DNA of 64,000 nucleotides from Bacteroidales bacterium. GTDB lineage: Bacteria; Bacteroidota; Bacteroidia; Bacteroidales; UBA10428. The stretch spans positions 1 through 64,000 of the forward strand of contig JAFGBD010000017.1 in assembly GCA_016933335.1 (NCBI GenBank), in the 5' to 3' direction. Every line of letters begins with the position of its first letter. Position 1 is the first letter of the stretch. The notes under the pieces are model-generated. The model did no database searches. It had not been told where the DNA came from and was given only the letters and a program-made list of their open reading frames with translations. Both the position numbers and the translations under genes were made by a program. Below, piece after piece: positions 15,788 to 30,975 of the stretch.

Positions 15788-18700
15788 ATGACTTATTATC
15801 AATCAAAATCCAGAAAATTATTCACCACCGGCTTCGTATTGTTTTCCATTACAGCCGGTCTGTATTCACAGCCAGGTAACATCAAGTTTGAGAATATTTC
15901 GATCAGGGACGGGCTCTCACAGTCATCACCAAACTGTATCATTCAGGATTCAAGAGGGATCTTATGGATCGGAACGGAAGACGGCCTTAATAAATACGAT
16001 GGTTACTCCTTTGTCGTATATAAGCCGGAAGTCGGCGTAACCGGCAGCATAAGCAATAACAGGATCAACTGCATCATCGAGGCAAAAGACGGGAACTTAT
16101 GGATCGGGACCAATGGCGGAGGACTAAATCTCTATGACAGAAGAACGGATATGTTCTTTCATCATACAGGTTCTGATTCAGATGATTTTAAGAGTGAGAC
16201 CATTAACTGTTTATATGAAGAAGACGACGGCACTTTATGGGCCGGTACCCTCAACGGCCTTGCCAAAATTCAGCAGTCAACACAGAGCATAAAAACTTAT
16301 ATCAGTAACCCTCTTCAGTCAGGTACCATAAGCAGTGACCATATCACCTGTATTGCCGCTGATGAGCCCGGATTCCTGTGGGTTGGCACAAATGATGGCC
16401 TTAACCGGATGAATACCGGCAGGGAATCGTTCGAAAGGTACTACCACGACAGTACAGATGCCTCCAGCATATCAAGCAATTCAATCACCTGCTTTCTTAC
16501 AGACCAGACAAACTTATTCTGGATTGGCACATCAGACGGTTTAAATCTTTACGATCATTCAAATGATGCATTTGAAAGAATAACCCTACCCCATCATAAT
16601 AATATCAATGGTGTCACCGAAAATACGATCACAGCGCTGGCAGAAGACAATGACGGTAATATCTGGATCGGCACAAATGGTAACGGTGTTGACATATTTA
16701 TCAAAAACATAAATCAGGCTATCAACCTGAAATACAATCACAATAATCCATACTCCCTGAGCAATAATGAGGTATTATCCATATACAGGGATCAGTCCGG
16801 CATTATCTGGGCAGGTACAAATGGACTTGATAAATACAATTCAAAGAAAGAAAAATTTACACTTTTCAATTTCGATCCGTATTCATCCGAAGGATTGGTC
16901 TACAGACATATACATTCAATATACGAAGATGATTACGGTGTTTTATGGATTGGCTCAAAAAGCGACGGAATTCTGCTGCTTAACCGTGCAAAAAAAGTAT
17001 CGGGCAGAATCATGATGGCTGAAGATCGCAGTTCCGGCTTATCGAGCAATAAAATCAGAGTTATCAGGGAACATCCGGAAGGGATCATCTGGGTTGGCAC
17101 TGATGACAACGGACTCAACCGGATAGCATTGAATGAGGAAAGAATACCATCATCATATGAAGTTTTCAGGCATGATCCCGGAAATTTTAACAGCCTTACC
17201 AGTAACACAATTTATACATTATACTTTGACGAAAAAGACAACTTATGGATAGGCACCGACAATGGTATTTCGGTCATGAATCTGAACACAGGCGAAATAA
17301 AAAGACATGTTTATAATCCGGACAATCCCAACGGATTAAATAACAATACAGCATACTATATTTACGGTGACAGCAAAGGCAATATCTGGATTGCAACAGA
17401 CAACGGGATTAACAGGCACCTTCCCGAAAGCGACGGGTTTTCTCATTATGTTTCAAAGGATGATGATCCGAATTCTTTAAGCAGCAATGAATTGCTTACA
17501 ATTTATGAAGACAGAAACAACATTATCTGGATAGGAACCTATGCCAAGGGAATAAACAGCTTTAACCCTGAAACCGAAGAATTCAACCGTTACGAAGAAA
17601 TTACCGGATTGTCAACAGCTGTGGTATATGGTATCCTTGAAGACAGCAAATCATATCTTTGGTTAAGTACAAATGATGGTATCATCAAGTTTGATCCGTC
17701 TGAGAAAAGCATTGCCAGACATTTTACCATCGAAGATGGTCTTCAGAGTAATGAATTCAACGGGGGAGCATATTTCAAAAGCGTATCAGGAGAGATGTTT
17801 TTTGGAGGCCAGTACGGATTTAATTCATTCTTCCCAAATGAAGTGTCGGTTGATACAATACCTCCCAAGATCATTCTTACCGAACTAAAAATCAACAACA
17901 AAGTAATTGCACCGGGAAAAGACTCACCAATTGACTGTCATATCTCGGAAGTTTCTGAAATCATTCTGAATTCAAGGCAGAATAATTTTACCCTGAGTTT
18001 TGCCGCCCTGCATTTTGCAAATCCTGATGGAAACCATTACCGGTATATGCTGGAAGGTTTTGACAAAGACTGGATAGATGGAGGTACACAACGTTTCGTT
18101 TCCTACACCAGCCTGCCTTATAAAACATACAATTTCAGGGTTCAGGCAGCCAACAGCGATGGTATATGGAATGAAAGCGGACTGGCTGTAAGGATCAAAA
18201 TCAGGCCGCCTTACCACGCAACAACCGGCTTCAGGTTTCTGATTGTCCTTTTGATCATCACAGCAGTTTATTTAATTATCAGGGGCCGCATCAGGGAACA
18301 AAACAGGCAAAAAGAAAAGCTTCAGAAAAAAATAGAAAAGAATACGCAGGAACTGGCTGATACCAAAAAGCAACTTGAAAAGCAGCAGGAAGAGATTACC
18401 ATTCAGAAACAGGAAATCAGGCTAAGAGAAAAAGAACAGCAGGATATCATGTGGTATAATGAAGGTCTGAATAAATTCAGTGATTTGATGAGTAAAAATC
18501 AGGGAGATATCAAAAAACTAACCCAGGTGATCATCAACAACCTTATTGATTATGTAGAAGCTGAACAGGGCGGGATATTCCTTCTGAATGATGATAATCC
18601 CGAAGATATTCATTTACAGCTGGCAGCCAGTTACGCATACAACAAGGAACGACTGGATGCCAGATTTCTCATTGGTGAAGGATATATCGGTACCTGCTTT

Positions 18701-19198
18701 AAAGAAAAAAAGGTGATCGAGCTCGAACATCCGGAAAAAGAATATACCGCTGTGCGTTCGGGACTCGGAGAAGAACACCCGAAATACATAATATTCATCC
18801 CTATAAAAATGGATGAAAGCGTTGAGGGAGTTATCGAGGTTGCCTCGTTCAAAAAGCTCAAAGGTTACAAAGTCAGTTTTGTACAAAAAATGGCAGAAAC
18901 ACTCACTTCTATCATTACCAGTGAAAAAGCGACTCAGAAAATGTTTAAAATCGTCGAACAGTCTAAACTTCAGTCAGAAGAACTTGCTGCACAGGAAGAA
19001 ACACTCAGGCAGAATCTTGAAGAAATGAGTGCTGCCCACGAGGAAGCTTCAAGAAGAGAAGACGATCTTATCAAACAGGCTGAAGAATTTGCCTCCAACG
19101 AAACAATACTTCAGGAAGAGATAGAATCGCTCAGGTCTGAGAACCGGAAATTAAAAGAACAAATTACAAGCCTGTCAAAAAAAAATAAAAAGAATTAG
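15788..19198 (+). CDS. Propeller (reg_prop) sensor with Y_Y_Y, TM, GAF and coiled coil but no kinase
   Basis: The 1136-aa protein resembles the input half of Bacteroidota hybrid two-component systems. After a signal peptide come about 14 reg_prop repeats of the ILWIGTEDGLNKYD type (residues 40-640, two seven-bladed propellers), then a Y_Y_Y domain (about 715-790, ending at NFRVQAANSDG) and one transmembrane helix (FLIVLLIITAVYLIIRG, about 816-832). The cytoplasmic part has a coiled coil (835-900), a GAF domain (about 915-1060, with GEGYIGTCFKEKKV) and a second coiled coil (1065-1136), and then stops. There is no His-kinase, response-regulator or AraC domain. The GAF/coil part closely matches the protein at 22308-25022. 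It probably senses a periplasmic glycan or signal and relays it by an unknown partner. Confidence 0.88.
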   Translation: MTYYQSKSRKLFTTGFVLFSITAGLYSQPGNIKFENISIRDGLSQSSPNCIIQDSRGILWIGTEDGLNKYDGYSFVVYKPEVGVTGSISNNRINCIIEAKDGNLWIGTNGGGLNLYDRRTDMFFHHTGSDSDDFKSETINCLYEEDDGTLWAGTLNGLAKIQQSTQSIKTYISNPLQSGTISSDHITCIAADEPGFLWVGTNDGLNRMNTGRESFERYYHDSTDASSISSNSITCFLTDQTNLFWIGTSDGLNLYDHSNDAFERITLPHHNNINGVTENTITALAEDNDGNIWIGTNGNGVDIFIKNINQAINLKYNHNNPYSLSNNEVLSIYRDQSGIIWAGTNGLDKYNSKKEKFTLFNFDPYSSEGLVYRHIHSIYEDDYGVLWIGSKSDGILLLNRAKKVSGRIMMAEDRSSGLSSNKIRVIREHPEGIIWVGTDDNGLNRIALNEERIPSSYEVFRHDPGNFNSLTSNTIYTLYFDEKDNLWIGTDNGISVMNLNTGEIKRHVYNPDNPNGLNNNTAYYIYGDSKGNIWIATDNGINRHLPESDGFSHYVSKDDDPNSLSSNELLTIYEDRNNIIWIGTYAKGINSFNPETEEFNRYEEITGLSTAVVYGILEDSKSYLWLSTNDGIIKFDPSEKSIARHFTIEDGLQSNEFNGGAYFKSVSGEMFFGGQYGFNSFFPNEVSVDTIPPKIILTELKINNKVIAPGKDSPIDCHISEVSEIILNSRQNNFTLSFAALHFANPDGNHYRYMLEGFDKDWIDGGTQRFVSYTSLPYKTYNFRVQAANSDGIWNESGLAVRIKIRPPYHATTGFRFLIVLLIITAVYLIIRGRIREQNRQKEKLQKKIEKNTQELADTKKQLEKQQEEITIQKQEIRLREKEQQDIMWYNEGLNKFSDLMSKNQGDIKKLTQVIINNLIDYVEAEQGGIFLLNDDNPEDIHLQLAASYAYNKERLDARFLIGEGYIGTCFKEKKVIELEHPEKEYTAVRSGLGEEHPKYIIFIPIKMDESVEGVIEVASFKKLKGYKVSFVQKMAETLTSIITSEKATQKMFKIVEQSKLQSEELAAQEETLRQNLEEMSAAHEEASRREDDLIKQAEEFASNETILQEEIESLRSENRKLKEQITSLSKKNKKN

Positions 19199-19246
19199 CA
19201 TCAAAAATCTGCTGTTTCCCTCCTTTCTTAATCATAATAAACCATG

Positions 19247-20428
19247 CTAGTCTTTTTTGGAATATGAGATGGCATTTTCCAGATCCTCAATAAGATCATC
19301 AATATGCTCCAACCCGACAGAAACACGCATCATTCCATCAGTAATACCTGCTTCAGTCCTCTCTTCGTCAGATAACTTTGAATGGGTAGTTGTTGCAGGA
19401 TGTGTAATGGTAGTCCTTGTATCACCCAGGTTTGGTGTAATTGAGAACAGCTTCAAAGCATTAATAAATTTCATGGCCCTTGGCCTGCCGCCTTTAAGTT
19501 CGAATGTAACCAGTGCCCCTCCAAGTCTCATTTGCTTCCTGGCCAGCTTATAATTCGGATGAGATGAAAGAAAGGGATATTTTACCCATTCAATATCCGG
19601 GTGATTTTCCAGGTATTCCGCCATTGACAGCGCATTTGAACATAACCTCTCCATACGGATGGATAGGGTTTCCAGGCTCTTTGACAAGAGCCATCCCGTA
19701 GTCGGTGCCATGGTTGTGCCAACCATCCGTGAAAGGGTAATGATGTCATTCATGAATTTTTCTTTACCAAGTATGGCTCCTCCTATGGTCCTGCCCTGGC
19801 CATCAATGAATTTTGTGGTGGAATGGATTACAAAGTCTGCACCATATTTCATGGGATTCTGGAGATAGGGAGTGGCAAAACAATTGTCCACAACAAAATA
19901 CAGATCATGTTGCTTTGAGAATTTACCGATCAGTTCAAGATCAAATATCTCGAGCCCGGGATTTGAAGGGGTTTCAACAAAGATCATCCTTGTTGAAGGC
20001 AAAAGACAGGTTACAATTTTTTCAGGGTTATTCATTTTTACATAGGAATGTGTGATTCCCCATTTTGATAATACCTGTTCAACCAGCAGATGAGTTGTCG
20101 CAAATAAATGCCTGGAAAGGATGATATGATCACCGGCACGCAATATTCCACCCATACTTAAAAAAACTGCTGCCATTCCTGATGAAGTAGCAACACCTGA
20201 TTCGGCATTTTCCAGAAGGCAGAGTTTACTCACAAGCTCATCTGTATTCGGATTATTGTATCTGGAGTACAGGTAGCCGCTCTTCTTTTCTGCGAAAACA
20301 GCTTCTGCTTCCTCGGCAGTGTTAAATACAAAACTGGAAGTTTCATAAATCGGCACACTGTGCTCTTTATAGGAAGATTGAATGGCCTGTGTCCGTATTG
20401 CCCGGGTTTCGAATTTTTTGTTCTTCAT
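19247..20428 (-). CDS. metZ: O-succinylhomoserine sulfhydrylase / Cys-Met metabolism PLP enzyme
   Basis: PLP-dependent enzymes of this family replace the activated hydroxyl of homoserine by sulfide, making homocysteine for methionine. The 393-aa length fits. Motifs: YSRYNNPN near 54, SSGMAAVFLSM near 82, the cofactor-binding Asp in VVDNCFATPYLQ near 180, and the PLP Lys in HSTTKFIDGQGR (about 205-210). The IDGQGR stretch after the Lys is typical of MetZ rather than of MetB or MdeA, but substrate choice cannot be fixed from motifs alone. A well-matched promoter box lies 32 bp upstream; no SAM riboswitch was recognised. Confidence 0.85.
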   Translation of the reverse strand: MKNKKFETRAIRTQAIQSSYKEHSVPIYETSSFVFNTAEEAEAVFAEKKSGYLYSRYNNPNTDELVSKLCLLENAESGVATSSGMAAVFLSMGGILRAGDHIILSRHLFATTHLLVEQVLSKWGITHSYVKMNNPEKIVTCLLPSTRMIFVETPSNPGLEIFDLELIGKFSKQHDLYFVVDNCFATPYLQNPMKYGADFVIHSTTKFIDGQGRTIGGAILGKEKFMNDIITLSRMVGTTMAPTTGWLLSKSLETLSIRMERLCSNALSMAEYLENHPDIEWVKYPFLSSHPNYKLARKQMRLGGALVTFELKGGRPRAMKFINALKLFSITPNLGDTRTTITHPATTTHSKLSDEERTEAGITDGMMRVSVGLEHIDDLIEDLENAISYSKKD

Positions 20429-20459
20429 TCAAACGAGTTTTAAGGTATGACATAATGAC

Positions 20460-20467
20460 CAAAGATA
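20460..20467 (-). promoter_or_regulatory. Putative metZ promoter -7 box
   Basis: On the minus strand this reads TATCTTTG, an exact TAnnTTTG match, giving a leader of about 25 nt. The -33 position reads CTG rather than TTG. Confidence 0.45.
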
Positions 20468-20532
20468 ATTTATCCGGTTGAAATTTCAGCAGTAATATGA
20501 TGCAGACATAAAACACGCAGGAGCAGAACAGG

Positions 20533-21735
20533 TCACAAACCCTGGGCCAGTTTCAGTTTTCGGTCAGCAATCAGTTCCTTGCAATAATCAATCAATTGCC
20601 GGTTAAGGCTTTTCCAGGGCATCGGATGTCTCGCTTCCAGATCGGAATATGGTTTGTTGATGATTACCGGTACCTGATGCGACAGTCCTGTTTCTGTTCC
20701 GTAATATAAGACAGGAGGGTGTGGCTGGTCAAACTGTATTTTCAGGGCCATCTTCAGCTTCTCAATACTCTGGCCGCATTCATACACAAACCTGCTCATA
20801 TCATGGTTGTCTATGAAATTCGGAAGGTAATAACCGGATGGAAACCGTCTGTAATGCTGTTTAAGCGAATCTGCAATCTGACCTGCATAATCATGGGGAT
20901 TCTCTTTCCAGGCAATATATTCGACCAGACGGTCTCTCAGTACAAAATCAAGCACTCCGTCCAGTATGCCTGTATACTCTTTCTGGATATCCTCCTGCTT
21001 CAGATCAAAGAGCCATTTCAGGTACTTGTTTCTCAGGCCTATTGTTGACAGATCTTTAAAACGTATACCGCTAATCCATGCCTCTCCTATCAGCAATGCT
21101 TCCTTATGACAGGATCTGATCTCTTTTGAAAATATCTTCCAGAAATCAACAGGAGGACCTACCACATGGTCAAGCCTGAAGCCGTCAATCCCTTTGTCAA
21201 GCCAGAATTTTGCCGCCTCAATGATATGTCGTGAAGTATCTGCATTATTCAGATTCAGTTTTGGAAGCGAGTGTACCTGGAGAAAACAAAGGTATTTATC
21301 AGGCCATCTTCTGAAATAAAACCAGTTATGATATTTACTCGCTTTATTTTCCCTGGCTTCGATAAAAAAAGGATGCCGGTTTGAGCAATGATTGGGTATG
21401 AAGTCCGCAATGATCCGGATATTTTTTTTATGTGCAGCTGAAATCAATTGTTCCAGAATATTGATACTGCCGAAGGCCGGGTCAACCTGAAAATAATCTG
21501 TTACATGGTATCCGTGATACCTGTCTGTTTTATAAAATGGTGAAAGCCAGATAGTATTGATTCCCAGATCACAGAGATAATCAATCTTTTCAAGAACTCC
21601 GTTCAGGCTGCCTCCGATAAAATCAGGCTTATCCCAGGGCCTGTTTTCATCATATCCTGCAAATCTGTCAATCAGGATATGATAGACAATGGATTCTTTA
21701 AACCAGCTTGCCGCACTATTCATAACATCTTTCAT
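20533..21735 (-). CDS. Cytoplasmic GH13 alpha-amylase family enzyme
   Basis: The 400-aa protein has no signal peptide, so it should act on maltodextrins in the cytoplasm. It contains the GH13 blocks: DFIPNHCS (region I, about 111-118), DGFRLDHVV with nucleophile D189, LLIGEAW with acid/base E218, and FIDNHDMSRF with the third Asp near 308. The C-terminal beta domain is very short, so the enzyme is compact. Exact specificity (amylase, cyclomaltodextrinase-like, or debranching) is not clear. It stands alone and is preceded by a 572-bp gap containing an isolated hairpin. Confidence 0.9.
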   Translation of the reverse strand: MKDVMNSAASWFKESIVYHILIDRFAGYDENRPWDKPDFIGGSLNGVLEKIDYLCDLGINTIWLSPFYKTDRYHGYHVTDYFQVDPAFGSINILEQLISAAHKKNIRIIADFIPNHCSNRHPFFIEARENKASKYHNWFYFRRWPDKYLCFLQVHSLPKLNLNNADTSRHIIEAAKFWLDKGIDGFRLDHVVGPPVDFWKIFSKEIRSCHKEALLIGEAWISGIRFKDLSTIGLRNKYLKWLFDLKQEDIQKEYTGILDGVLDFVLRDRLVEYIAWKENPHDYAGQIADSLKQHYRRFPSGYYLPNFIDNHDMSRFVYECGQSIEKLKMALKIQFDQPHPPVLYYGTETGLSHQVPVIINKPYSDLEARHPMPWKSLNRQLIDYCKELIADRKLKLAQGL

Positions 21736-22307
21736 TCAGCAGGCTTCAATCATTAATCAATTTAACTAATCCTTAAAGAGGTCAGTCAATAAGCGTATTG
21801 AAGGCAGGATTAAAAATAAGGAAGTCTGCCGTTTGCAGCAGACTTCCTGGTTTTATGGGTTCAATCGTTAGGGTTAATAATGCCGTAAATATACTAAAAT
21901 AGTTCAATAATACAATACCAGCATTAAAAAATTTGAATCTGTAAAGGAAATACAGTGGAATGCCCTAATGGATTATTTATTAACAACAGCTCCCGGGCAT
22001 CATCCTTCATCTTTGAATTCATTGGTATTTTGTGTCACAACCTTTTTTCATAAAATAAGATACATATATTTCAGTTTTCCGTGTCTATTTATTAACTTTC
22101 GTTTGAAGTTAAACTGATCATTCAGCTCATCATATATCATCAGGATACAAAAAAATAAATGATTGAAATATCATATGAATTCCATGAGACAACAACCATT
22201 TTAAATACTAACATATGAAACCTCCTTGTTCTTCAAGCACAAATAAGTATGAATATAATTCGCAACATGGAGGTTAAATACGACCATAAAAATAAAATTA
22301 TCTGCGT
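21736..22307. other. Large divergent intergenic region
   Basis: This 572-bp AT-rich gap separates the minus-strand GH13 gene from the plus-strand PAS/GAF sensor. It contains a 10-bp-stem hairpin at 21820-21847 and an inverted repeat TTAACTT..AAGTTAA at 22092-22112 (7-nt loop). I found no convincing small gene; a 63-codon minus-strand frame at 22201-22392 overlaps the sensor start and looks spurious. Confidence 0.5.
21820..21847. terminator. Isolated terminator-like hairpin
   Basis: GGAAGTCTGC and GCAGACTTCC form a perfect 10-bp stem with an 8-nt loop. On the minus strand it is followed by TTATTTTTA, as in an intrinsic terminator, yet no minus-strand gene ends here. It could end a small RNA or act as an attenuator in the GH13 leader. 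Confidence 0.45.
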
Positions 22308-25022
22308 ATGAAACCAACAAATAAGATGCCCGTGATTGTTTTGTTAATGGGATTAGTGTTGTTATCAACCACAATGGACGAATCAAATGCATTAAGTACC
22401 AGTCATAAGGATATTCATATTTACAAAAGCCTTTTACTGATAAGGAGCCTGTATCAGTTTGAGGAAACAGACAGTATCATAGATGATTCCGGAGAGCAAA
22501 CAAAATCTGATTCCGTAAATAAAGCAATATCTGACGAATCTCTGATTCCGGAAGCATCAGAAGAAATCACTGAGGATAAGGTTGATATGCCGTCAAGTGA
22601 TCGGGATAGCGACAGCCTGGATATCATCAGTCAATCATCAGAAGCTCAAACAGGTAAAGCGGCCAGATTTCCATTTTACAGAAGATGGTGGTTTTCATTT
22701 CTTCTGGTTCTCCCCGTTTTCCTGATAATGCGCCGCTCTTATTTAAAAAAGGAAGGTGAATTTCTAAATACCATTGAAAAGCAGAAAGAAGAGATAGAAA
22801 CTGTTAAAGAGCAGCTGGTTGATACGGAGACCCATTTTGATAAAACGCAAAAGGAACAGGCTGAGAGGCTGGAAGCTGAAAAGGAGCTCAGATATAATGC
22901 GGAGGGTATATCAAAGTTCAGCGACCTGTTATCCAGAAATAAAAGCAATACAAGTGTACTGGGCCAGAAAATCATATCGGAACTGGTTTCATTTGTTGGT
23001 GCCAATTCAGGCGCCATGTACCTGTTGAAAGAGGAAAATAACGGCAATGAGCCGCTGCTGGAATTTTTAGGAGGATTTGCCCCTGACCTCAGCCAGATCA
23101 AATCATCTTTCAAAGAGGGAGAAGGTTATGTCGGGTCATGTTTCAAAGAAGGTAAAACAATGGAACTGAGTAATACCGAAGAATCATTCATGAAGGTTTA
23201 TTCAGGTCTCGGCGAAGCTTCTCCAAGTCATATTGTCTTCGTACCGCTGAAACAGGATGAATTTAAAATAGGGGTTATTGAAATTGCCTCATTTCGTAAG
23301 CTTGATGAATATAAGATCAGATTCATTGAAAATCTGTCAGAAAACATTGCCTCTACCATTGCATTGAATCAGGCAAATGACAAAATGCAGGCAATGCTTG
23401 AGCAATCAAAGATACAGTCCAAAGAACTTCAGACACGCGAAGAAGAATTAAAACAGAATCTTGAAGAAATGCATGCAACCCAGGATGATCTGAACCGGCA
23501 GATGGAAAAAAACAAAAAGATGCAGGAAAGCCTGATGAAAGAAAAAGCCCTTCTGGATTCACTCCTGAACAGCCTGCCTGATTATATTTATTTTAAAGAC
23601 CTGAACAGTAAGTTCATCAGGATCAGCAAATCAATGTTGCCCCTCTTCCCTGTCAAAGATGTGGACGAAATGATCGGAAAATCAGACTTCGACTTCCAGG
23701 ATAAGGAAACTGCCCAGAAGTATTATGAGGAAGAGAAGAATATCATCAAAACCGGGAAAGGATTTGTTGATAAAGTGATACATGAAGTAATGGAAAACGG
23801 GTATGAACAATGGTCATCAACATCCAAAATGCCATTGTATGATGAGACCGGGAATTGTATCGGTACATTCGGTATTACAAAAAATATTACCGAGCTGAAA
23901 AAGCTTGAAATGGATGCGAAAGAGCGGGCAGAACAGCTGTTATCGCAGGAGGAAGAACTGAAACAGAACCTTGAAGAGATGCAGACCGTACAGGAAGATC
24001 TTCAGAAACAAAAAGAGGAACTGTCAAAAGAAAAAAGCCTGATGGATGCATTATTAAGCAATGCCAAAGAGTCTATCTACTTCAAGGATGAAAAAAGCAG
24101 ATTTATCAAGGTCAGCAATTCAATGGCTAAAATGTTCAAAGTTAAAAGCGTTGAAAAACTATATGGCAAGACTGATTTTGATTTCTTTACTGAAGAACAT
24201 GCGCGTCCGGCTTTTAATGATGAGATGAATATCATTAAAACAGGGAAGCCAATATTGGATAAAATTGAAAAAGAGACACATCCGGACGGACGTGTCAGCT
24301 GGGTAACCACATCAAAAATGCCATTGAGAAACAGTGCAGGTAAAATTATAGGCACGTTCGGTATCTCAAAAGATATAACGGATCTCAGAAAGATGGAAAT
24401 GGCAATCAAGGAAAAGAATGAGGAGCTTCTGGCACAGGAAGAAGAACTAAGACAAAACCTTGAAGAAATGCAGACCACGCAGGAAGAACTGGAACGGCAA
24501 ATCCAGGAAAACAAAGCAATCCAGGAAGAACTGGAAAAAGAAAAATACCTGATGGATGCCCTGATGGAAAATGTTCCGGAATATATCTATTTTAAAGACC
24601 TGGAAAGCAAATTCATTAAAAACAGTAAATCGCACGCTTTACTGTTCGGGTATCCCGATCCGAAAAAAATATATGGAAAATCTGATTTTGATTTTTTCGC
24701 TGAGGAGCATGCCAGACCAGCATACAAGGATGAACAGAGAATTATTAAAACAGGAAAGCCAATCATTAACCTGGTCGAGAAAGAGGTTAAAAAAGATGGT
24801 AAGGTTTCATGGGTCAGTACTTCAAAAATGCCATTGAGGAATCAAAAAGGAAAAGTTGTCGGAACCTTTGGCATTTCCAAAGACATTACCGATATAAAGA
24901 ACATGGAGTTTGAAATAAAGCAGAAGCTGGATGAAAATGAAAAAATAAAAAAAGAGTTCGAGAAAAAGGAAAATGAATTTAAAAAAACAATTCAAAAGCT
25001 CAAACAGGAAATGAAGAAATGA
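22308..25022 (+). CDS. Membrane GAF + triple-PAS coiled-coil sensor without output domain
   Basis: The 904-aa protein starts with a hydrophobic segment (about 8-22) and has a second transmembrane helix at about 127-142 (WWFSFLLVLPVFLIMRR). It therefore presents a short Ser/Asp/Glu-rich loop outside the cytoplasm. Inside are a coiled coil (150-195), a GAF domain (about 205-350, GEGYVGSCFKEGKTM), and three PAS domains (about 420-545, 575-700 and 755-870). Each PAS begins IYFKD, contains GK(S/T)DFDF, and ends GTFGI(S/T)K(D/N)IT. They are joined by coiled coils with the repeated LKQNLEEM pattern. No kinase, GGDEF, phosphatase or HTH domain follows. The GAF and coil regions are paralogous to those at 18480-19190. 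Confidence 0.85.
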   Translation: MKPTNKMPVIVLLMGLVLLSTTMDESNALSTSHKDIHIYKSLLLIRSLYQFEETDSIIDDSGEQTKSDSVNKAISDESLIPEASEEITEDKVDMPSSDRDSDSLDIISQSSEAQTGKAARFPFYRRWWFSFLLVLPVFLIMRRSYLKKEGEFLNTIEKQKEEIETVKEQLVDTETHFDKTQKEQAERLEAEKELRYNAEGISKFSDLLSRNKSNTSVLGQKIISELVSFVGANSGAMYLLKEENNGNEPLLEFLGGFAPDLSQIKSSFKEGEGYVGSCFKEGKTMELSNTEESFMKVYSGLGEASPSHIVFVPLKQDEFKIGVIEIASFRKLDEYKIRFIENLSENIASTIALNQANDKMQAMLEQSKIQSKELQTREEELKQNLEEMHATQDDLNRQMEKNKKMQESLMKEKALLDSLLNSLPDYIYFKDLNSKFIRISKSMLPLFPVKDVDEMIGKSDFDFQDKETAQKYYEEEKNIIKTGKGFVDKVIHEVMENGYEQWSSTSKMPLYDETGNCIGTFGITKNITELKKLEMDAKERAEQLLSQEEELKQNLEEMQTVQEDLQKQKEELSKEKSLMDALLSNAKESIYFKDEKSRFIKVSNSMAKMFKVKSVEKLYGKTDFDFFTEEHARPAFNDEMNIIKTGKPILDKIEKETHPDGRVSWVTTSKMPLRNSAGKIIGTFGISKDITDLRKMEMAIKEKNEELLAQEEELRQNLEEMQTTQEELERQIQENKAIQEELEKEKYLMDALMENVPEYIYFKDLESKFIKNSKSHALLFGYPDPKKIYGKSDFDFFAEEHARPAYKDEQRIIKTGKPIINLVEKEVKKDGKVSWVSTSKMPLRNQKGKVVGTFGISKDITDIKNMEFEIKQKLDENEKIKKEFEKKENEFKKTIQKLKQEMKK

Positions 25023-25335: not shown

Positions 25336-28300
25336 ATGAGAAAAGTTTTACTACCGATGATTATAATGGGAGTTTCGTTTTTAACAGCTGTCGGACAGGC
25401 TCCCAGATTATGGCTGAATGCCGGTGAATTCTACACTGAGATGGCAGCAGGTGAGATTGATTCCCAGCTTGTGATCATCCGGAATACAGGTAACAGGGAT
25501 CTGAATTGGAGTTTTACGGATGTCTATGGCAACAGTGTTGATTTCACAAAAGCTGATTATGCCGACTGGACACTGGCTGAAAACCAGGACAGGATAACCG
25601 GTGCCGTCTGGATAACCAGGGCCAATGAAAGAGGGATTTTTAACATTGCCCGGGAGGAGGAATTTGACTGGATGTCCCCGGTAAACACTGAATGGGCCCC
25701 TGGCAACACCCTGGGAGTTGATCCCGGTGATTACACAAACTGGGGAAATGCCGTTGGCTGGAATCCTCCCAATATGGTAGGCAAAACATATTCTATGTTT
25801 CTGCCGGAATATTCACAATTTTACGATGTGGTGTTTCACAGATGGACACAAGGTGCAGGCGGTGAAGGACAGGGAGGCGGATTTTCATATACACGTACGG
25901 AAATACCCAGGTGGATAAGTGCGTCTAAAATGTCCAATACTTTGATCCCCGGTGGGTCTGATACGGTCTGGGTTTACTTTGATGCCGGAAACCTGGTGCA
26001 AAGAAACTATGTGGCTTACGCTGAAATGACCACAAATGACCCGCTCACACCTCTGGCAGTGATAACCTTTAATCTGAATATTTCTTCGGGCAATCCCGAA
26101 ATCTATATTGAAGAAACCTCAATTGCATTTAATGATGTGTTTGTGAACTATCCGGAAACATATCAGCTGAATATCATTAATGAAGGCTCCGGGGACCTCG
26201 AGATAACCGGTGTTGCATTCAACCTGCCGGAGTTCTCATCTCCAACAACCAGTCTGACTGTGCCTCCGCTGGATTTCCGATCAGTAGATGTTGTGTTTAC
26301 CCCGTTATTGAAAAAAGAATATTCTGACACGATCTATCTGTCCAGTAATGATACCGATGATCCGCTCATAAAGATACCTCTTACCGGTACAGGTATCGCA
26401 CCTGCTGATATCCAGGTCGATCCTTTATCCTTCGTTGAAACTGTACCCCAGGGCAATATTGTTGCGTTAAAACTGGTTATTTCCAACACCGATTCGACCG
26501 ACCTGGAATGGGGAATAGATGTTATGGCTGACATGGTTAAAACCGGCAATGAGGTTACATTCACCAAAGCAGATTACAGCGACTGGAACCTCCCGTCCAA
26601 CCAGGATATCTGGTCGCCTAATGTTACCATAACACGTGCAAACAGCCAGGGAATTTTCAATATCGCAAATGAAGCCAGTTATCAATGGGGTTCACCCTCG
26701 TTAACACTCTGGTCGTTTGGAAATACGGGTGAATTAGAACAGGATGACTATGAAATCTGGGTAGATGCGGTAATGGGCAATCCGCCTTCAATGGTTGACA
26801 ATCCCATGTCAGTATATCTGCCCGAAGACGATATATACTATGATATCCTGTTCCACAGCTGGTCAGGTGGCGGAAGCGGAGGAGGATTTTCATATACCAG
26901 GCAGTTGTTCACCAAATGGCTGGGTATATCAGAAGCATCAGGAACAACAAGTATTACCGAACCCGACACCGTAACTGTGCTGATTGATGCAACCGGCCTG
27001 GTGAACGGGACCTATTCGGGAAGTCTTGCCATATACAGCAATGACCCTGATGAAGGAGAGATTAACATTCCTGTTCAGATTACAGTTGCAGGGGGAGTCC
27101 AGAATATCAGTGTATCTGAGCCATTGCTTGATTTCGGGGATGTCTTTGCAGGTGATTCAAAGATCCTTGCACTTGAAATTGAAAATGACGGAACAGGTGA
27201 TCTGACAGTAAGCGGGATTACAACGATCAGTGATAAATTTGAGGTTGCTCCCTCATCCTTCACACTGAACGGCAATTCCAAACAGACTGTTGATATTGAA
27301 TTTTCTCCTGAATCGGCAGAAAGCGTAGTTGATACTTTATACATAACAAGTGATGATCCGGAGACCCCGCTTGTAAAGATACCGATTGTTGCAAATGTTA
27401 TTTTACCTCCGGGTATTGAAGTGCCGACCCAGGATATCTCCGTCGACATAATGAGCGATGATATCTTTGTTTATAAACTACCTGTTAAGAATACCGGTGA
27501 TAACGATCTTGAGTATGAAATTGTAAGAAAACAGCAGGTTGTTTTCTCTAAAGAAGATTATGCAGACTTTACCCTGCCTGAAAATCAGGACAGGATAACC
27601 GATAATGTCTGGATTACCAGGGCAAGCACCCAGGGCCTGTTTAATGCCGCTACTGAGAATTCGTTTAACTCAACCATATCACCTGACGGGACCGAATGGG
27701 CATACGGAGCTACAGAAGATGTCGATCCGGGTGATTATGAGGTATGGGTTAATGCAATAGGCTGGTACCCTCCGGGAATGGTAGGTAATGTATTATCGCT
27801 TCACCTGATTGAAGAGGATCTTTATTATGACGTGGAATTTACGAGCTGGACACAGGGCGGCAACGGGGGAGGATTCTCATACATCAGAGCAGAACAAATG
27901 CCGGACTGGCTTGACGTGGTAAACAAGAGTGGTACTGTTGCTCCCGGAGAGACAGACACGGTGGAACTGGTATTCGATTCCGAAGGGCTGAATGAACAGG
28001 CATACCAGATCACTTTCCTGATGAATACAAATGTACCGGGAAGTAAAAGCATCCTGTTTAATGTAACAATGAATGTACAAGGCGTACCGGATATTTCCAT
28101 CTCAGCTAATGATCTTGATTTCGGTACCACTTATATCGGTTTTCCTGATACATTGCAGGTAATTGTTACCAATACAGGCACCGATTCACTGGTACTGGAT
28201 AACCTGACAACGCAAACCGGTTATTTCAGCCCGGTTGAAGATCAGCTGCTGGTTATGCCCGGTGAAGACAGACCTTTACGGATGGTATTCAATCCCGATG

Positions 28301-30975
28301 CTTTACAGGAATATCTTGACACTGTGGAATTTTCAACGAATGTGACAGGTGTTCCTTCAATGTCGGTATCCCTGAAAGGTATGGGTGCCAATCCGCCCAA
28401 CCTGTCTGTCGAGCCTGAAATGCTGAGTTATGTGACCTATTATGATAAGATCATAACCGATTCGGTATTCCTGCTGAACAGTGGTTCCGGTCCTGCATTA
28501 TGGAACGCAAATCTCATTGACAGGAATATCGGTCTCGATGATGTTCTTGAAAATCTGAATACCAACAGTGCCGGTATCATCTCACAGATACCAAACATGT
28601 ACACCTTTTCCTACGACGGAGATGATTATTCAATAGGTGACGGCGGGAATGATATGTATGATGGAGGTAACTACCTCAGTACATCAATGGGAATGTCAAA
28701 TATCATGTATTCGGATAACATTATTGTCAGCGGAGATATGCATTTTGGTGCAAACACTGCATATTTCACGCGGCACCTGGACGGATTGTTTGTGCTTGCT
28801 GCTGACATGAATGAAGTGGAATCCTTTCACATCGACGGAGACCTGGGTGCTGACGGAGGCGGAAGTTACAACTCTGCCGTACTTGAATATGAATATAATG
28901 GAATTAGATTCAAGGGTTTTGTCAAGAGGGTTTACAATGCAGGAGATCCTTCAGTAAATCACCTGGTGATCATTGAAGAAAACCCAAATGCCACGCAGTC
29001 GATTGGCACTACTACAAATAGTGATATGCATTATCTGGAAGGATTATCCGGAACGCAGAGAATGTATTATCTGCTTTATGCAGGTGCCAGCGGTTATTAT
29101 ATTGATGATCCCGGCACCATGGCCATCATGGAAGCTTTCATTGAAAGCGTATATATGGCACCGGAGTGGATTAAGCTGACTTTTACAAATGATGCCATTG
29201 CTTCATCATCCACAGACACCATCGGTATTACGATTAATACAACAGGAATGATGTCGGGAGATTATAACGGAAGAATTTTCATTCCATGTAACAATCCGGT
29301 AAACCGGATGCTGGAAGTGCCGGTAAGTCTGACTGTCAAGGGCATTGCGGTTGTCAATCCCCTGGAAGACATGCTGGTTAATGAAGGATTTGTATCTGAT
29401 ACCATTGATATTTCAGGCGTGTTTGAGGATGCAGAAGGAGACGCGCTGGAATATACGATAACCAGTAGCGAACCAGAGGTGGTTACCGTTGATACCACGG
29501 AAGGTAAATTACTGGTAATGGAAGCCGGCACAGGAACTTCGACCATTACCATCAGGGCAGCCGATGGATTTGGCAATGTTGAGTATGAAGATTTCCAGTA
29601 CAGGGTCAATGCCAATCCAACGCTGCTGACTCCAATAGCAGATTATACGGTAAATGAAGGATTTGCAGCAGATACGATTGATTTATCAGCTGTATTTGCC
29701 GATGTGGATAATGATCCACTGAAATTCAGTTTCACCAACAGCAATCCGGCAACAGTAGACGTATCTGTAATGGAGAATATGCTGCTGATCGGTGAGGTGG
29801 CATACGGTAATTCAAACATCTCGGTTACGGCATCTGACAGTGTAGGAATTCCTGCTACGGATGAATTTGTGATCACTGTCAATTCTTTGCCTGTAGTAGC
29901 CGGTGCGATTAATGACACCACTGTGAATGAAGGATTCGCCAGTTATACCGTTGATCTGTTAGCCGTATTTAACGATGCAGATAATGAAACCTTGGCATAT
30001 GAATTAACAAACAGCAACCCGGCTGCGGTAACCGTATCTCTAGCAGGTGATGTGCTTACCGTACAGGAGGTGGCATATGGCATATCAACCATTTCTGTTT
30101 CAGCAACCGACAACATCGGCACACCGGCCAGTGATGAGTTTGTGGTCACGGTCAATGCTTTGCCGGTTCTGGCCAAAGCCATAAACGACACCACCGTGAA
30201 TGAAGGATTCGCCAGCTATACCGTTGATCTGTCAGCCGTATTTAACGATGCGGATAATGAAACCCTGGCGTATGAATTAACAAACAGCAATCCAGCTACG
30301 GTAACCGTATCTGTAACAGGAGATGTGCTTACCGTACAGGAAGTTGCATACGGCAGCTCAACCATCTCCGTTTCAGCATCTGACAACATCGGGGCACCGG
30401 CCGGTGATGAATTTGTGGTCACCGTAAATGCAATCCCGGTGGTTGCCAGTGCATTGTCCGACATAAAGATGGATGAGGGCTTCGTAACCCATACTGTAGA
30501 CCTGGGCAGTGTTTTTGCCGATAATGATGACACCCAGCTGGAACTTTCTGCCACCAGTGACAATACTGCTGTCGTAACAGTGTCGGTAGATGCTGCAACC
30601 CTGACAGTTACCGAAGCAGGTGTCGGAACCGCCAATATAACTGTGACTGCAACAGACAGCAAAGGGGCAGATGCATCGGATGTGTTCGAATTCACAGTAG
30701 AAGATGTTACAGCTCTTGAAAGCCTGACAGATGCCGGCGTCAGCCTGTATCCGAATCCGACAAAAGGTAAGATTTACCTGTCGGTTGAAAATGCAGACCA
30801 CATGCTGATTACTGTTGAGTTTACAAACATAACAGGAGATGTCATGATGAACGACCGGTTCCGTTGCTCAGGAATAGCAAGGGAACTTGATCTTACATCG
30901 TTTTCAAAAGGTATGTACTTCATGAAAATCACATCTGACGACTGTTCAGTTGTTAAAAAAATAATCATTGAATAG
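25336..30975 (+). CDS. Giant type IX-secreted repeat protein (ASH-like, cadherin-like, novel module)
   Basis: The 1879-aa protein has a signal peptide (MRKVLLPMIIMGVSFLTAVGQ) and a C-terminal type IX sorting domain (SLYPNPTKGKIYLSV to SVVKKIIIE, about 1800-1879), so it should be exported through the outer membrane. The N-terminal 1060 residues alternate ASH/HYDIN-like Ig sandwiches (DFGDVFAGDSKILALEIEN type) with three copies of a module of about 118 aa (68-187, 407-522, 735-851). A region at 1070-1340 looks like a unique globular domain (SYDGDDYSIGDGGNDMYDGG). Five cadherin-like repeats of about 91 aa follow (1336-1790). The sequence suggests a long adhesin or structural surface fibre; no enzyme motif is seen. 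A perfect terminator follows. Confidence 0.9.
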   Translation: MRKVLLPMIIMGVSFLTAVGQAPRLWLNAGEFYTEMAAGEIDSQLVIIRNTGNRDLNWSFTDVYGNSVDFTKADYADWTLAENQDRITGAVWITRANERGIFNIAREEEFDWMSPVNTEWAPGNTLGVDPGDYTNWGNAVGWNPPNMVGKTYSMFLPEYSQFYDVVFHRWTQGAGGEGQGGGFSYTRTEIPRWISASKMSNTLIPGGSDTVWVYFDAGNLVQRNYVAYAEMTTNDPLTPLAVITFNLNISSGNPEIYIEETSIAFNDVFVNYPETYQLNIINEGSGDLEITGVAFNLPEFSSPTTSLTVPPLDFRSVDVVFTPLLKKEYSDTIYLSSNDTDDPLIKIPLTGTGIAPADIQVDPLSFVETVPQGNIVALKLVISNTDSTDLEWGIDVMADMVKTGNEVTFTKADYSDWNLPSNQDIWSPNVTITRANSQGIFNIANEASYQWGSPSLTLWSFGNTGELEQDDYEIWVDAVMGNPPSMVDNPMSVYLPEDDIYYDILFHSWSGGGSGGGFSYTRQLFTKWLGISEASGTTSITEPDTVTVLIDATGLVNGTYSGSLAIYSNDPDEGEINIPVQITVAGGVQNISVSEPLLDFGDVFAGDSKILALEIENDGTGDLTVSGITTISDKFEVAPSSFTLNGNSKQTVDIEFSPESAESVVDTLYITSDDPETPLVKIPIVANVILPPGIEVPTQDISVDIMSDDIFVYKLPVKNTGDNDLEYEIVRKQQVVFSKEDYADFTLPENQDRITDNVWITRASTQGLFNAATENSFNSTISPDGTEWAYGATEDVDPGDYEVWVNAIGWYPPGMVGNVLSLHLIEEDLYYDVEFTSWTQGGNGGGFSYIRAEQMPDWLDVVNKSGTVAPGETDTVELVFDSEGLNEQAYQITFLMNTNVPGSKSILFNVTMNVQGVPDISISANDLDFGTTYIGFPDTLQVIVTNTGTDSLVLDNLTTQTGYFSPVEDQLLVMPGEDRPLRMVFNPDALQEYLDTVEFSTNVTGVPSMSVSLKGMGANPPNLSVEPEMLSYVTYYDKIITDSVFLLNSGSGPALWNANLIDRNIGLDDVLENLNTNSAGIISQIPNMYTFSYDGDDYSIGDGGNDMYDGGNYLSTSMGMSNIMYSDNIIVSGDMHFGANTAYFTRHLDGLFVLAADMNEVESFHIDGDLGADGGGSYNSAVLEYEYNGIRFKGFVKRVYNAGDPSVNHLVIIEENPNATQSIGTTTNSDMHYLEGLSGTQRMYYLLYAGASGYYIDDPGTMAIMEAFIESVYMAPEWIKLTFTNDAIASSSTDTIGITINTTGMMSGDYNGRIFIPCNNPVNRMLEVPVSLTVKGIAVVNPLEDMLVNEGFVSDTIDISGVFEDAEGDALEYTITSSEPEVVTVDTTEGKLLVMEAGTGTSTITIRAADGFGNVEYEDFQYRVNANPTLLTPIADYTVNEGFAADTIDLSAVFADVDNDPLKFSFTNSNPATVDVSVMENMLLIGEVAYGNSNISVTASDSVGIPATDEFVITVNSLPVVAGAINDTTVNEGFASYTVDLLAVFNDADNETLAYELTNSNPAAVTVSLAGDVLTVQEVAYGISTISVSATDNIGTPASDEFVVTVNALPVLAKAINDTTVNEGFASYTVDLSAVFNDADNETLAYELTNSNPATVTVSVTGDVLTVQEVAYGSSTISVSASDNIGAPAGDEFVVTVNAIPVVASALSDIKMDEGFVTHTVDLGSVFADNDDTQLELSATSDNTAVVTVSVDAATLTVTEAGVGTANITVTATDSKGADASDVFEFTVEDVTALESLTDAGVSLYPNPTKGKIYLSVENADHMLITVEFTNITGDVMMNDRFRCSGIARELDLTSFSKGMYFMKITSDDCSVVKKIIIE
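25537..25896 (+). repeat. Module copy 1 (FTKADY...GGGFSYTR)
   Basis: This is the first of three homologous protein modules (residues 68-187). Shared marks are (F/V)xFTKADYxDW, NQDRIT, the (V/T)xITRANxxGIFN block, a DPGDYxxW segment, NPPxMV and the closing GGGFSYTR. Confidence 0.8.
26554..26901 (+). repeat. Module copy 2 (FTKADY...GGGFSYTR)
   Basis: Second copy, residues 407-522. It keeps FTKADYSDW, VTITRANSQGIFN, GNPPSMV and GGGFSYTR; NQDRIT is changed to NQDIWS. Confidence 0.8.
27538..27888 (+). repeat. Module copy 3 (FSKEDY...GGGFSYIR)
   Basis: Third copy, residues 735-851. It keeps DYADF, NQDRITDNVWITRA, DPGDYEVW, WYPPGMVG and GGGFSYIR. The spacing between copies is about 330 residues. 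Confidence 0.8.
29341..30705 (+). repeat. Five tandem 273-bp cadherin-like repeats
   Basis: Units begin at 29341, 29614, 29887, 30160 and 30433, an exact 273-bp (91-aa) period. Each has the core VNEGF, then VDLxAVF, DxDN, and TVxVT or a variant. Units 3 and 4 are nearly identical, which suggests recent duplication and possible length variation by recombination. Confidence 0.85.

Follow-up and report, generated by a model that had tools for sequence, protein, structure and literature searches.

The two genes examined here lie on the forward strand of a 64,000-nucleotide stretch (the window) from a Bacteroidales genome. The first, at 15788..19198, encodes a sensor of 1136 residues in which thirteen Reg_prop stretches are followed by a Y_Y_Y domain (residues 743-805, 18014..18202; Pfam PF07495, E 2.6e-15), a transmembrane segment found by hydropathy scan (residues 815-833, 18230..18286), a coil, a GAF domain (residues 907-1043, 18506..18916; Pfam GAF_2, E 2e-8, also recovered by an AlphaFold2 model and Foldseek) and a final coil that runs to the end of the protein (18917..19195) and holds a conserved core with acidic pairs (EEMSAA) at 18989-19063. 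The second, at 22308..25022, encodes 904 residues in the order TM-coil-GAF-coil-PAS-coil-PAS-coil-PAS-coil. Its N-terminal part is hydrophobic, with a probable transmembrane helix (residues 127-141, 22686..22730) that was placed by eye and lies below the hydropathy cut-off of the scan. Pfam finds a GAF_2 domain (residues 218-351, 22959..23360; E 3.5e-13) and three PAS domains, the second a PAS_4 (residues 585-694, 24060..24389) and the third a PAS_9 (residues 760-862, 24585..24893), and a copy of the coil motif precedes each of the three (23436..23489, 23946..23999 and 24435..24488). The recurrence of the LKQNLEEM coil ahead of PAS 2 and PAS 3 marks this coil as an independent module. Among the neighbouring ORFs we saw no partner gene, and no CheR, SpoIIE or kinase gene adjoins either sensor. 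Downstream of the PAS sensor gene, at 25336-30975 on the forward strand, lies a secreted-looking repeat protein of 1879 residues with a tail that by eye resembles a type IX secretion signal. A role in anti-phage defence was considered and rejected, PADLOC returning no match.

Both ORFs lie where an earlier note on this DNA had placed them, and the GAF/coil module that it had described as shared between the two proteins is real. The bounding motifs (N/S)KFSDL(M/L)S(K/R)N and GVIE(V/I)ASF(K/R)KL lie in the propeller protein at residues 895 and 1014 and in the GAF/triple-PAS protein at 202 and 322, and in an own-genome search the two modules align over 205 aa (query residues 4-208 of 210) with 42% identity and an E of 1.4e-51. 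In line with the same note, Pfam gives no kinase, cyclase or DNA-binding domain above its cut-off in either protein, and no phosphatase domain; MCPsignal (PF00015) has no match in either protein, nor in the module relatives that were sampled. A degenerate kinase in the C-termini had been named as an observation that would speak against the absence of an output. Pfam finds none in either protein, and in the AlphaFold2 model of the last 312 residues of the propeller protein (mean pLDDT 91.6) a helix leads into a GAF fold and from there into a single continuous helix of 110 residues (model residues 202-311), with block means of pLDDT at or above 89 up to about residue 290. The top Foldseek matches of this model are GAF domains. 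A C-terminus predicted to be uninterrupted helix leaves no place for a concealed degenerate kinase. In hybrid two-component sensors, the Reg_prop/Y_Y_Y/TM arrangement normally continues into a kinase. The propeller protein shares with them the periplasmic propeller, the Y_Y_Y domain and the transmembrane segment, whereas its GAF-coil end stands where they have kinase, receiver and DNA-binding domains; such an output after Y_Y_Y is absent from the propeller protein (Pfam and model) and from four propeller relatives.

The own genome, of 4.05 Mb in 88 contigs, encodes eight proteins with the module, spread over six contigs. Besides the two window proteins, these comprise another propeller protein on contig C25, a protein of HAMP-GAF-coil type on C36, one on C53 that has GAF and PAS domains and a hybrid kinase as its neighbour, one on C65 in which a weak Cache match precedes the GAF-PAS part, and two on C80; one of the eight is fused to SpoIIE, and another adjoins CheR in the C80 cluster. 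The earlier note had proposed that the window proteins form a coiled-coil scaffold or recruit a kinase in trans. Action in trans is indeed the natural reading, whereas the idea of these two as a dedicated pair is not supported, as both belong to a set of eight dispersed paralogues, and our analysis gives no sign of a heteromer between them. The C80 cluster reads CheR, HAMP-GAF-PAS sensor, CheR, CheB without a receiver, short GAF protein, GAF-PAS-SpoIIE protein, SiaB kinase, SiaC and ABC protein. The HAMP region of its sensor was assigned by resemblance, Pfam giving only GAF and a weak PAS, and SpoIIE, SiaB and SiaC score above the cut-offs of PF07228, NF038262 and PF09345. Judged by what we take to be the core motifs of CheR and CheB, the expected residues are present in the first CheR and in the CheB, and the second CheR looks degenerate. 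Both CheR matches of the genome fall in this cluster and no MCP signalling domain was found anywhere in the genome, so these CheRs need another substrate. Sixteen SiaC-family matches in the same genome (G000) suggest many parallel partner switches.

To follow the module across Bacteroidota, genome contigs were scanned with the pattern [QRN]EE[ETQ][ML][RK]Q[NT]xE, which gave 543 relatives in 576 pattern matches; we retained the loci of the best 79 of the 543, whose titles all place them in Bacteroidota, and took 50 of the retained loci for counts of CheR, MCPs and SiaC. The kept loci, loci from a phylum sample and the own genome together yielded 148 full-length module rows, in 112 of which the complete protein ends in coil or PAS: in 25 the end comes within 75 aa past the module, in 58 the tail is roughly as long as one PAS domain and in 29 it is longer, with tails classed by length and by matches to our own reference domains and Pfam run on a sample. 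The remaining rows are the two window proteins, two that run off the contig end, 23 kinase-receiver fusions and nine SpoIIE fusions; the kinase fusions were deliberately fetched from the phylum sample, so that these row counts are not frequencies in nature. The survey of other genomes and C-terminal partners that the earlier note had called for hence returns mostly coil or PAS ends and some fusions, and its second counter-explanation, truncation of a missing domain in the homologues, fails: with 112 of 148 rows ending in coil or PAS, to lack an output is a normal condition in this family. Nor does an enzyme end any of four propeller relatives from two further genomes, which finish in coil (two) or PAS (two), and those in G387 and G462 have open frames and natural stops. 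The module is present in 70 of 198 genomes of the order, often in several copies; among the matches listed, those that extend into the Y_Y_Y end of the query come from the own genome, from G387 (same family) and from G462. Inputs vary across the family and include a periplasmic propeller, a HAMP or four-helix region and Cache. It is near certain that the two window proteins belong to this family of output-less GAF-coil sensors.

The best conserved part of these proteins is the coil after the GAF domain. Its core has a mean entropy of 0.59 bits, against 1.53 bits for GAF, in the non-redundant rows that lack an output (1.49 and 1.96 bits in kinase fusions), the conservation of coil columns 186-195 being partly selected by the scan pattern. 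At positions that the pattern does not cover, column 196 holds E in all 81 rows, and columns 199-202 hold A, T, Q and E in 77, 80, 80 and 78 of the 81. Within the motif AQEEEMRQNMEELxATQEE, exposed R, Q and N are near-invariant. One pair belongs to a site of the form EE[LM]x[AS][ST], present in 113 of 116 rows, that agrees with the chemoreceptor methylation motif EExxA[ST]; the match is to the downstream half of the consensus, the small residues upstream of the pair being missing. Among the rows that did not come from the pattern scan, the site is kept in 14 of 15, the fifteenth, with EEMSAA, being the propeller protein of the window. When the pattern is relaxed ([EQ]E pair then xx[AS][AST]), it fits 0 of 218 pre-GAF pairs, 2 of 177 pairs in kinase fusions, 69 of 3154 pairs in ORFs of other kinds and 16 of 77 pairs in MCPs. 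Ladders of at least four acidic pairs at seven-residue spacing are found in 89 of 116 rows versus 0.4% of composition shuffles, and elsewhere in 3 of 23 kinase fusions, 2 of 9 SpoIIE fusions and 0 of 115 pre-GAF helices. By our own assignment from the spacing of hydrophobic positions, the pairs would occupy heptad positions b and c. In FrzCD and Tar, according to one report (PMC2535941), methylation sites lie seven residues apart and are typically the second residue of a pair. The propeller protein has EEMSAA and a broken ladder of two pairs, and the three coil copies of the GAF/triple-PAS protein carry ladders of two, three and five pairs.

Gene linkage ties the family to CheR/CheB and to SpoIIE/Sia or kinase outputs, a connection that we consider well supported; this link to CheR/CheB, SpoIIE, SiaB/SiaC and hybrid kinases is the strongest context and was not part of the earlier note. 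In the phylum sample, the module (E<=1e-30) occurs in 23 of 296 genomes, and CheR is present in all 23 versus 187 of 296 overall (Fisher 1.5e-5 by genome and 0.004 by genus, shared descent ignored). MCPsignal is found in 92 of the 296 genomes and, among the matches listed, in one of the 23 module genomes (G184). In 20 of the 23, a module gene has a stand-alone CheR no more than about 5 kb away (the misses being G033, G214 and G164); the linked module is a kinase fusion in 16 of these genomes and a SpoIIE fusion in three, and the own genome has both an output-less sensor and a SpoIIE fusion. Contrary to a methylation reading, most CheR-linked modules of the phylum sample are kinase fusions, with coils that lack EExxA[ST]. 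Among the 50 genomes with output-less members, CheR is found in 49 (the exception is a 2.1-Mb assembly) and SiaC in all 50, as in the own genome; CheR and SiaC lie within 10 kb of each other in at least 37 (at least 35 by a hand count of genome-wide matches, and two from L042 and L047). MCPs are present in 36 of the 50, so that their CheRs also have an ordinary substrate. Some module genes adjoin hybrid kinase or SpoIIE genes. At five loci (L027, L035, L038, L052 and L055), a stand-alone SpoIIE gene is the immediate neighbour of an output-less sensor gene and lies on the other strand. Between CheB and the SpoIIE gene, the own cluster (L015:9483-10268) and the loci L042, L047, L058, L077, L091, L100, L104 and L108 keep a short, coil-less GAF protein of 220-261 aa. 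The second CheR of the cluster (L015:8080-8910, which is the own C80 copy, and likewise at L058, L077 and L091) has altered core motifs and looks catalytically degenerate.

At ten loci, a che operon includes an output-less member, which is the next gene after CheB in nine of them and the next but one in L070. The full operon is seen in the cultivable Alkaliflexus imshenetskii (L091), where MCP, a small ORF, a CheY-like receiver, a small ORF, CheA, CheW, CheW, CheR, a small kinase, CheD and CheB precede the GAF-coil-PAS sensor, and CheR, CheR, CheB, a short GAF protein, a SpoIIE protein, SiaB and SiaC follow it. We considered an MCP domain in the 281-416 aa tails of these members and rejected it, as the four tails run through Pfam are PAS domains and not MCP hairpins. 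All ten che-operon members, which are close relatives of one another, end in [DE]xF (VELF or VDLF) versus 0 of 103 other complete output-less members, five proteins having been skipped in this count for open ends or shortness. The 103 include L085, a relative of the che-operon type that ends ISAEFV and whose contig stops before any che gene; with L085 taken as che-linked by resemblance, the counts become 10 of 11 versus 0 of 104 (Fisher 1.5e-13, shared descent ignored). As a background, [DE]xF ends 34 of 1405 ORFs; of the complete MCPs at these loci, 7 of 10 have such an end. A C-terminal pentapeptide that binds CheR is carried by only a minority of MCPs. The Salmonella-type CheR tether is NWETF, its consensus combining W at position 2 and F at position 5 with acidic residues in the other places (PMC7390727). 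The che-operon peptide keeps the acidic residue and the final Phe; as it has no aromatic residue at position 2, we call it tether-like only. The one che-operon CheR tested, from L091, has Salmonella CheR as its best match (E 1.3e-47) and is gap-free between two core motifs, and the own-genome CheR matches Bacillus CheR best. The C53 protein of the own genome, in which there are no MCPs, is similar to the che-operon type, yet its last residues are TAFIQEIKT, and the peptide is absent from both window proteins. A small histidine kinase of about 300 aa between CheR and CheD also ends in [DE]xF (EIF, ETF or EEF) in nine of the ten che-operon loci (L058, L059, L063, L067, L070, L074, L077, L079 and L091, with L080 lacking it), as if docking on a Che enzyme.

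As the best explanation, we propose that these proteins are methyl-accepting sensors outside the MCP family, with a coil that is methylated and signals in trans; methylation and partnering are the parts we infer from sequence, at about even odds (roughly 0.5). The sequences themselves show the module and its lack of outputs, the acidic ladder, the linkage to neighbouring genes, and the members inside che operons with the peptide at their C-terminus. In the proposed mechanism, a variable input domain would drive the cytoplasmic GAF domain and, through it, the long signalling helix, often with PAS domains. This helix would be the working part, its solvent-facing acidic pairs forming a ladder like that of a chemoreceptor adaptation helix, and the stand-alone CheR and receiver-less CheB of the genome's cluster would add and remove methyl esters on it. 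The state of the helix would then be passed in trans to outputs that share the module, chiefly the GAF-PAS-SpoIIE phosphatase acting on SiaC, or hybrid kinases. More tentatively, and with the balance tipping somewhat against it, all members could form one class in which interchangeable inputs converge on one CheR/CheB pair and one module-sharing SpoIIE phosphatase/SiaC switch instead of CheA. The window proteins may share the fate of their che- and cassette-linked relatives; being unlinked to CheR and without a tether, they stand one inference further away.

The most serious competitor, though a rather doubtful one, keeps the action in trans and drops the methylation: the coil would be only a dimerization and signalling helix that forms mixed coiled coils with SpoIIE or hybrid-kinase outputs, and CheR and CheB would act elsewhere. 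This would suit the fusion of the same module to SpoIIE (9 of 148 rows) and to hybrid kinases (23 of 148), the continuous 110-residue helix of the model, the members that adjoin kinase or SpoIIE genes, and the CheR-linked kinase fusions without a methylation-like site. It leaves unexplained the CheR co-occurrence and the tether-like peptide, and it sits uneasily with a coil core that is more conserved than GAF (partly by pattern selection) and with an acidic ladder that is mostly missing from kinase-fusion coils. Improbable in our view is a role as scaffold or localisation factor, in which the C-terminal coil would be a fixed docking surface for one conserved partner, unmodified and with little signalling; the near-invariant exposed R, Q and N and the repetition of the motif between PAS domains would suit a binding site, whereas the GAF, PAS and varied periplasmic inputs point to sensing and the CheR/CheB link is again unaccounted for. 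That the sensors are decayed receptors, former hybrid kinases that lost the catalytic half and persist as dominant-negative competitors, is very improbable: the propeller and Y_Y_Y half does resemble hybrid two-component sensors, yet the G387 and G462 relatives have intact frames with natural stops, and the output-less form is the common state, with the coil as its best conserved part.

The principle behind the preferred methyl-accepting reading is known, its closest precedent being the methylation of RsbK by RsbM. RsbK of Bacillus cereus has a signalling helix after its GAF domain, and RsbM methylates this helix; the PP2C phosphatase RsbY serves as output, and RsbM has no methylesterase partner (PMC4574943). 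The RsbK-RsbM-RsbY system shares with the present family a GAF domain followed by a signalling helix, a methyltransferase, a PP2C phosphatase and a partner switch, and differs in that RsbK has its own kinase and receiver domains and RsbM is unpaired, whereas here the sensors are output-less and both CheR and CheB are in the cluster. A GAF-helix protein with a linked CheR-type gene holds for the family, whereas the two window genes are unlinked to CheR. What departs from the RsbK precedent is the absence of a sensor output, the pairing of CheR with CheB, the presence of SiaB and SiaC in the cluster and the che-operon branch. The family resembles MCPs in the seven-residue spacing of the acidic pairs along a long coil, in its CheR/CheB partners and, as regards che-operon members, in a tether-like C-terminus; it differs in having neither the MCP signalling domain nor the hairpin, and hence no CheA/CheW site. 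With SiaABCD of Pseudomonas aeruginosa, it shares a SpoIIE-type phosphatase, the SiaB kinase and the SiaC phosphoprotein, whereas the cluster here adds CheR, CheB and GAF-coil proteins, and no diguanylate cyclase gene was identified in it. A search of one limited library returned no paper on CheR/CheB-linked output-less GAF-coil sensors in Bacteroidota.

If the methyl-accepting reading is correct, it would give a role to hundreds of sensors that seemingly have no output, and it would explain why CheR and CheB are kept in genomes without MCPs. It would also mean that adaptational methylation, in these bacteria, is coupled to a phosphatase partner switch.
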